A DNA stretch of 64,000 nucleotides from Natronospirillum operosum. Its GTDB lineage: Bacteria; Pseudomonadota; Gammaproteobacteria; Pseudomonadales; Natronospirillaceae. Positions 2,046 through 6,598 of the stretch are shown piece by piece. Position 1 is the first letter of the stretch. Each line of letters opens with the position of its first letter. The stretch is taken from NCBI RefSeq assembly GCF_004768465.1, contig NZ_SRMF01000008.1, positions 62,001 to 126,000 of the forward strand, read 5' to 3'. The position numbers and the translations under genes were made by a program. A model generated the notes under the pieces. The model did no database searches, was not told where the DNA came from, and worked only from the letters and a program-made list of their open reading frames with translations.

Positions 2046-2675
2046 TCAGGGGCTGGCTGCGTCTTCCGGCTGCAGGCGTGGAAAGAGATCGGATACCGAC
2101 CACCAATCCGGCAACCAGCCCAGTGCATCGGCCATGACCCACAGGGCCAGCAACAGAAACAGCAGGCTGGCCAGGCGACGGACGACCCGGGTCGGTATCC
2201 GGTCGGCAAAACGATGACCCAGCCAGAGCGCCGGCGTGGTCACCAGCAGAATACCCAGGGTCGCACCCAGAACAACCGGTACCACCTGGCCATAGACCCC
2301 CATCAGGCCGATTACGGTGACCTGTGTCTTGTCGGCCATTTCCAGTATGAAGAAGGCCAGTGCGGACGAGAGCATCAGATGTCGGCCGGAGCGCACCGGT
2401 GGCGGCGCATCGTCCTCCTCGAACAGCAGCCAGACTGCCATGATCAGGAATACACCCGCAATCAGCCAGGGTTGCCAGTGCATGGGCAACAGGCTGAACA
2501 GCCACAGGCCGGCCAGCGCTGTCAGCAACTGGTTAGCGAACAGACCCAGAGCCATGCCCCAGAATATGGGCCAGGGGCGGCGGTAGCGCAGCCCCAGCAA
2601 CAGGGCAAGAAAGAGGGAGCGATCACCGATTTCGGCAATGCCGACAGCGAGCGCTGAAACAAGAAAGGCATCCAT
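2046..2675 (-). CDS. TMEM165/GDT1 (UPF0016) family membrane protein, probable Mn2+ exporter
   Basis: Small (209 aa) integral membrane protein of the UPF0016/TMEM165/GDT1 family, whose bacterial members export manganese and whose eukaryotic members handle Mn2+/Ca2+. The family hallmark E-x-G-D-K/R-S/T occurs in each half: EIGDRS near residue 15 and EMADKT near residue 130, the two inverted three-helix halves expected for the fold. Six or seven hydrophobic helices are visible. The ATG at 2675 has the Shine-Dalgarno sequence CGGAGAAG eight bases upstream. A yybP-ykoY-type Mn2+ riboswitch and a promoter lie in the leader, giving independent support for a manganese role. The gene stands alone between glyS and gyrB. 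Confidence 0.92.
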   Translation of the reverse strand: MDAFLVSALAVGIAEIGDRSLFLALLLGLRYRRPWPIFWGMALGLFANQLLTALAGLWLFSLLPMHWQPWLIAGVFLIMAVWLLFEEDDAPPPVRSGRHLMLSSALAFFILEMADKTQVTVIGLMGVYGQVVPVVLGATLGILLVTTPALWLGHRFADRIPTRVVRRLASLLFLLLALWVMADALGWLPDWWSVSDLFPRLQPEDAASP

Positions 2676-3005: not shown

Positions 3006-3041
3006 ACAAAAAAGCCATTGTTCCACGTGGAACAATGGCTT
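3006..3041 (-). terminator. gyrB intrinsic terminator whose stem contains parS site 2
   Basis: Bases 3012-3041 form a perfect 30-bp palindrome (arms AAGCCATTGTTCCAC and its complement). On the minus strand, 26 bases after the gyrB stop, it folds into a long hairpin followed directly by a run of T residues (TTTTTTG), the layout of an intrinsic terminator. The inner 16 bases are a perfect parS site, so one sequence seems to serve both transcription termination and ParB binding. Confidence 0.85.
3019..3034. other. parS: parS site 2, inside the gyrB terminator
   Basis: TGTTCCACGTGGAACA, identical over all 16 bases to the site at 2961-2976, 58 bases away from it. It is the core of the 30-bp palindrome that forms the gyrB terminator stem. 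Confidence 0.92.
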
Positions 3042-3067: not shown

Positions 3068-5479
<2,412 letters not shown>

Positions 5480-6598
5480 TTACTCCTGTAACCTGTATGG
5501 GTGAACCCGACCTGCTTCTACGGCAAACCAGCGCGGGTCATCATGCGCAGACCACAGCCCGGGGGCCGGAAGCTGGTCTGCGGCCAGAACGGTCATAAAG
5601 ACCTGGGTGTCAAAACTGTCGATCAGCCGCAACATCTCGGTCAGATGGGCCTGATCCAGTTCTGCGGCCAGATCATCCATCAGGATGATCGGCAATGTTG
5701 TATTTTCCCGCTGGGCCAGACAACGAATCTGGGCCAGTTTCAGACAGTGCCCGAGCACCTTCATCTGCCCCCGTGACAGTACATCACGGGCCGGCATGCC
5801 TTCCCACAGCATGCGCAGATCCGCCCGATGGGGCCCGACCTGGGTAATGCCGGTACGCCGCTCGCGCTCCTGTATGCCCGGTCGTGACAAGGCCTCTTCC
5901 AGCGTCAGCCGGCTGTCCCAGCCCGGGCTATACTGAATACCCAGTTCACGTCCGAAGGCCAGTGTATCGGACCGCTCACACAGCTGCCGAAACTCTTTCA
6001 GCAGCGTTTCGGTGTAGGCCGTACGCAACTCATGCAACTGGCCGGACACGCGCAGGAATTCATGGGTCCAGGCCTGCCGCTCGGAAGCCGATATTTTACC
6101 AGATTTCAGCCCACTGTTGCGTTGTTTTACGGCCCGCTCAAAGCGACGGAATACGGGGCCTGAACCCTGTTGTTCCACGTGGAACACACCCCAGTCGAGA
6201 AAACGGCGGCGAACACGGGGTCCGCCCTCGAAAAGCTGGAAGTCATCCAGTGTCAGCGCCTGTACGGGCATGATGGCCGCCAGTTGGCTGGCTGAATGCA
6301 CACGATCACCATTGACCACGATATGACTGTCCGACTGTCTGGACCGCTCCATGCCGATCGCATACCCACTGGGCTGCAGCTCTCCATAAAGAGAGAAGCG
6401 CTCGGCCTGGATATGGATCAGGGGACGATGCTGCGCCACTCGATAGCTCTTGCCGGTGCCCAGCACGTAAAGCGCCTCCAGCAGAGACGACTTACCCGAC
6501 CCGTTATCGCCGCTGATGCAGTTGAAGCGCGGGCCAGGTTGAAAACGCAAGCCGTCAAGGTTACGGAAACCGGAGACTTTGAGAAGAGAGAGATACAT
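5480..6598 (-). CDS. recF: DNA replication and repair protein RecF
   Basis: SMC-like ATPase of the RecFOR pathway that helps load RecA on gapped DNA. It has 372 residues. The Walker A motif GDNGSGKSS is at about 30-38, the ABC-type signature LSRGQMK near 275, and Walker B ILMDDLAAELD near 305. The ATG start gives MYLSLLKVSGFRNL, which aligns with the family N-terminus, yet there is no Shine-Dalgarno sequence: the bases before the start read ACTCCTCACTGC. Translation may depend on coupling to dnaN, although a large hairpin lies in the 55-base gap. A perfect parS site is embedded in the coding sequence and encodes the residues VFHVEQ. Confidence 0.98.
   Translation of the reverse strand: MYLSLLKVSGFRNLDGLRFQPGPRFNCISGDNGSGKSSLLEALYVLGTGKSYRVAQHRPLIHIQAERFSLYGELQPSGYAIGMERSRQSDSHIVVNGDRVHSASQLAAIMPVQALTLDDFQLFEGGPRVRRRFLDWGVFHVEQQGSGPVFRRFERAVKQRNSGLKSGKISASERQAWTHEFLRVSGQLHELRTAYTETLLKEFRQLCERSDTLAFGRELGIQYSPGWDSRLTLEEALSRPGIQERERRTGITQVGPHRADLRMLWEGMPARDVLSRGQMKVLGHCLKLAQIRCLAQRENTTLPIILMDDLAAELDQAHLTEMLRLIDSFDTQVFMTVLAADQLPAPGLWSAHDDPRWFAVEAGRVHPYRLQE
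6171..6186. other. parS: parS site 3, inside recF
   Basis: TGTTCCACGTGGAACA, identical to the two sites near 3 kb, lying within the recF reading frame. Three perfect copies of a 16-mer within 3.2 kb cannot be chance. The spacing places all three 3-6 kb from oriC, typical of centromere clusters. Confidence 0.92.

Follow-up and report, generated by a model that had tools for sequence, protein, structure and literature searches.

Chromosomal parS sites of the ParABS system, of which the Pseudomonas type reads TGTTCCACGTGGAACA, have been described either within genes or as plain intergenic sites. Intrinsic terminators are stable stem-loops with a U-tract, located just past a stop codon. A few systems bring ParB-family proteins close to the control of transcription. 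For example, in 2015 Attaiech et al. (cited in PMC10516426) reportedly placed a chromosomal parS near comCDE of Streptococcus pneumoniae, where ParB is said to affect the expression of the neighbouring operon. That case resembles the one described here in having a chromosomal parS beside an operon. In RK2, the ParB-family protein KorB uses its site for both partition and transcription control, a further likeness; KorB acts as a silencer of genes and not at a terminator (PMC11790492).

The window, which is the whole 64-kb stretch of Natronospirillum operosum DNA that was analysed, contains a site with the traits of both a parS and a terminator. Like other chromosomal ParABS sites, it has the exact 16-bp core, it is near oriC and its genome encodes a ParB. 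Unlike them, the copy at 3019 doubles as the stem of a putative terminator. It shares with intrinsic terminators the stable stem-loop and U-tract just past a stop codon, as well as compensatory arm changes in an analogue from Burkholderiaceae. It differs from them in that a DNA motif for protein binding dictates the inner 16 bp, which leaves only the outer arms free to drift. Full-text literature searches for parS together with terminators turned up no account of a parS located within a terminator, a limited negative with few subscription papers covered. The merger, in scattered lineages of at least seven phyla, seems to be previously undescribed. The palindrome is best read, with a probability of roughly 0.8, as a single composite element, an intrinsic terminator whose stem is a complete parS, with economy and passive insulation as its likely benefits.

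The palindrome in its gene context

The region is the oriC-proximal dnaA-dnaN-recF-gyrB block, which lies on the minus strand (recF and gyrB were assigned by Pfam). About 330 nt past gyrB (3068-5476, minus strand), and in the same direction, is a gene for a GDT1-type cation/proton antiporter (2046-2675, minus strand), so a terminator is expected between the two. A terminator scan of this interval on the gyrB strand found no terminator-like site besides 3012-3041, which it lists with 13 pairs and a 4-nt loop. The sequence there, AAGCCATTGTTCCACGTGGAACAATGGCTT, is a perfect 30-bp palindrome and the longest in the window; the runner-up, at 18 bp, is 12 bp shorter. At 3019-3034 inside it is a perfect 16-bp parS, TGTTCCACGTGGAACA (no strand assigned), which supplies the inner stem and the ACGT loop of the hairpin, and the arms AAGCCAT/ATGGCTT outside this core complete the 13-bp stem.

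On the gyrB (minus) strand the stem starts 26 nt past the gyrB stop, and the hairpin at 3012-3041 has a predicted folding energy of -20.2 kcal/mol. The U-tract TTTTTTGT follows directly, running from plus-strand position 3013 down to 3006, and its first two T also pair with the AA at the base of the stem. Given the base composition of the window, the probability that the flanks of a parS pair over at least 7 bases on each side is about 8e-5. The 3012-3041 segment has the makings of an intrinsic terminator (a stable stem-loop, a U-tract directly after it and a codirectional gene end just upstream), and 3019-3034 those of a parS (a 16-bp palindromic core matching the consensus, an oriC-proximal cluster and a ParB in the genome). 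The sequence-only reading had described a perfect parS core centred in a perfect 30-bp palindrome with a T run on the gyrB strand, and this is exactly what is present. Its further claim, that the same DNA looks like both a terminator and a parS, also stands as a statement about sequence: all features of both are there, the arms and T run are kept in the sister species and the arrangement recurs in seven phyla.

Only three parS cores occur in the whole genome, all within 3.3 kb. The second (2961-2976) lies 42 bp beyond the fused one and has no pairing arms. The third (6171-6186) is within recF, in the codons of ..WGVFHVE.., a location also reported for parS1/2 of P. aeruginosa (PMC5521831). Pairing arms are confined to the 3019 copy, and the other two are without any terminator. 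ParB is encoded on the same contig (C31:30377-30658) by the single ParB_N match of the genome, which scores 131 bits. Of 87 unselected parS sites in the class, 32 have the same recF-type flank, so the intragenic recF parS is a widely kept feature. At 1999-2030 of the window, between the convergent ends of glyS and the GDT1-type gene, is a separate strong hairpin, rich in GC and with a T-rich tail on each strand; it looks like an ordinary bidirectional terminator.

Relatives within the family

The sister Natronospirillum sp. PBR18_bin05A, with 93% identity over the GyrB C-terminus, has GCAGCCATTGTTCCACGTGGAACAATGGCTTTTTTATGG after gyrB. Compared with the window, its hairpin and T run are identical (AGCCATTGTTCCACGTGGAACAATGGCTTTTTT is kept), and the spacer on both sides is changed and gapped. 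No counterpart of the 2961 parS was seen in what remains of that contig, a few tens of bases. The terminator stem is kept by pairing in relatives, as seen from its identity in the sister with diverged flanks and from covariation in the Burkholderiaceae analogue.

Elsewhere in the family (22 genomes) the arrangement differs. About half of these genomes have a parS shortly after gyrB, and there it follows a separate, ordinary gyrB terminator, up to about 390 nt from the stop. In two of them (L049 and L051) the parS begins at the end of the terminator T run, GGTAGGCTTTTTTGTTCCACGTGGAACA. A parS just past the gyrB terminator is probably the old arrangement, with the two merged in Natronospirillum; with most of the family having parS beside a separate terminator, the fusion is mostly a genus-level feature there. 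The sequence-only reading had named relatives whose parS core lacks the pairing arms and T run as evidence against it, and at the family level such relatives exist. Its suggested comparison of the gyrB 3' region came out divided: the sister keeps arms and T run, and in most of the family parS is outside the terminator. Judged from these genomes, the fusion is needless for either putative function, since in the other family members parS lies apart from the gyrB terminator.

Three other sites in the family are of some interest. In the closest other genus (L045, G007), +36 to +75 after gyrB is an ordinary terminator, AGCCGGTCTTGTTCACAAGACCGGCTTTTTT, whose AGCC foot and TTGTTC recur in the Natronospirillum hairpin and which may represent the state before the merger. 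Another family member (L055, G015) has, +43 to +80 after gyrB, a gyrB hairpin that contains a hybrid parS, TGTTTCACGTGGAACA, and is weaker, with one T-T mismatch and a folding energy of -14 kcal/mol. Its T run may be that of the adjacent gene, and the locus was left out of the fused count. In G018, about 1 kb after gyrB (L028, 1489-1528), a parS has 12-bp perfectly pairing arms that make a 40-bp palindrome, with no clear T run.

These family data bear on whether the overlap is a coincidence, that is, an unselected chance meeting of parS and terminator in one genus. The absence of the fusion from the wider family and a genus sample of two species are what such an accident would give, and so is the rarity of arms among unselected parS sites. 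The sister speaks against it, in that its hairpin is kept while the flanks change.

Recurrence and covariation in other bacteria

The pattern AAAAAGC-N1-4-parS-N1-4-GC, in which the inner N bases are unconstrained, was searched for in 85,000 genomes and gave at least 119 loci. Among the matches listed, the inner arms are fully paired in 93 of 119, with 4.2 expected if they were random, in a set of loci that are not independent (41 are from Burkholderiaceae and 10 from Methylophilaceae). The paired loci among the matches listed cover at least seven phyla and about 20 named families. By simple ORF calls, in 61 of the 93 paired loci listed a gene pointing the same way ends no more than 120 nt from the stem side of the element, and 3 show the opposite orientation. 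Unpaired matches are mostly within ORFs, as in Shewanella; the matches in Shewanella, Psychrobacter and Mycetohabitans, with unpaired arms and mostly inside ORFs, were counted as unpaired.

Closer to the window organism the fused state is rare. At the order level the strict form was found in 4 of 255 genomes; each of the four forms a hairpin whose arms pair, apart from a mismatch in G596. Among 87 unselected parS sites of the class, three have arms of at least 4 bases (0.6 expected by shuffling) and one of more than 4, and all three lack a T run next to the arms. Extended arms are no normal part of parS. A class-wide pattern of AAAAA N2-10 parS matched 22 genomes, nearly all through the recF parS with a coding A/T run, and gave no fused hairpin outside the window genome. 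A T run near parS is, by itself, not evidence of fusion, given that these class matches are mostly coding recF.

The genes that the fused element ends are varied. It follows gyrB in Natronospirillum, in Vreelandella jeotgali and in an unplaced proteobacterium (L143), and also, with imperfectly paired arms, in Nitrincola tapanii and the similar G596. In Methylotenera and an Alcaligenaceae MAG (L137) it ends mnmE, in an Oscillospiraceae MAG (L109) rsmG, and in a Bacilli MAG (L183) gyrA. The gene ended is a noc/parB-family gene before parA in Clostridium (L182, L202) and Phascolarctobacterium, and an ABC-transporter gene before mnmG in Paraburkholderia. Most of these host genes lie near oriC, a region in which parS sites are to be expected. 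In Leuconostoc, Methylotenera and others, A and T runs occur on both sides of an element placed between convergent genes, as in a bidirectional terminator. The Clostridium sites are the longer ones: parS is contained in palindromes of 46 bp (L182, about 1486-1531) and 60 bp (L202, about 5303-5362) between the noc/parB-family gene and parA, both flanked by A and T runs on either side.

The Burkholderiaceae provide enough loci to follow individual pairs. Across 43 loci, each of the six arm positions adjacent to the core is paired in 41-43 of them. At position 2, 18 loci have C-G and 25 have T-A, so that 43/43 are paired; position 3 is G-C except for one T-A and one C-G; and at position 1 the two deviations are both G-U. 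A T run persists on the 3' side; on the 5' side, the sequence outside the stem is unconstrained. Mapped onto an MnmG tree, position 2 has undergone seven or more changes, each affecting both sides, with the tree itself weakly supported (2 of 7 independent pairs are on well-supported, starred branches). The flanking arms covary in these Burkholderiaceae/Paraburkholderia loci. In the aligned arms, the covariation is the pattern of an RNA hairpin and not merely that of a protein dimer site.

It is highly improbable that the palindrome is nothing more than an extended parS, meaning a longer site for ParB or an accessory protein with an incidental T run and termination elsewhere. Symmetric arms are what a dimer site would have, and some long-armed loci, such as that in G018, are without an evident T run. 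Such arms, however, are missing from nearly all unselected parS sites and from the other two of this genome, and their sequences vary among lineages. Among the matches listed, the T run is placed correctly with respect to gene ends in 61 cases versus 3, and the two Burkholderiaceae deviations at position 1 are G-U, which pairs in RNA and not in DNA. Chance overlap is likewise quite unlikely: the merger is repeated in seven phyla, with pairing, orientation and covariation far beyond what chance would give. Repeated neutral merging would nonetheless be compatible with that explanation, because parS is a ready-made stem.

Putative termination and ParB loading, and their possible coupling

As a composite element, the palindrome would work in two forms. 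The gyrB transcript would fold the 13-bp hairpin followed by the U-tract and RNA polymerase would be released, a Rho-independent stop that serves the direction of dnaA-dnaN-recF-gyrB transcription. As double-stranded DNA, the same bases would load ParB near oriC. The two uses are compatible because parS is self-complementary. With its 6-bp stem and ACGT loop it is nearly a terminator stem, and it would become a terminator on gaining a T run and a few more bases that pair below the stem; alternatively, a terminator stem could gain a parS in fewer changes than unpaired DNA. This self-complementarity alone may explain why the merger has happened repeatedly.

The likely benefit is economy together with passive insulation, in that transcription would stop at the ParB-loading site and not run across it. 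A benefit from insulation is plausible: ParB spreading is reported to be attenuated by RNA polymerase and other bound proteins (PMC7053999), and in P. aeruginosa ParB represses genes beside intergenic parS (PMC5521831). From the sequence features we infer termination of gyrB RNA, ParB loading and this benefit at the element.

A more active role for ParB is unlikely. ParB on parS would act as a roadblock or alter termination at the hairpin, making the gyrB 3' ends and read-through into the GDT1-type gene ParB-dependent, or gyrB transcription would adjust ParB loading by way of how efficiently the terminator works. ParB-CTP clamps quit parS quickly and slide away, which makes a stable block at parS itself uncertain, and the parts are separate in most relatives. 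The fusion does recur after several oriC-proximal genes, and the attenuation of ParB spreading by RNA polymerase and bound proteins (PMC7053999) would also suit such a role. In P. aeruginosa, native ParB represses genes beside intergenic parS3/parS4 and excess ParB lowers dnaA-dnaN-recF-gyrB expression, but the intragenic parS1/2 are without effect at native ParB levels (PMC5521831). Active control of the gyrB 3' ends by ParB is possible and not favoured; structural compatibility with passive insulation is preferred over regulation of termination by ParB. It is a tentative idea, and on the unlikely side, that parS-terminators are a recurrent selected class with termination and ParB loading coupled both ways: the terminator would shield the loading site from elongating RNA polymerase, and ParB occupancy would alter how key operons near oriC are terminated.

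One stretch of bases can be both a centromere site of a bacterium and a transcription terminator, and mergers of this kind have happened repeatedly. If the two functions are coupled, such sites would provide a direct test of what transcription through a centromere does to ParB loading and chromosome segregation, and of whether ParB determines where the transcripts of essential genes like gyrB end. Even without coupling, mutation of parS in such genomes would also remove a terminator, and mutation of the terminator a parS.
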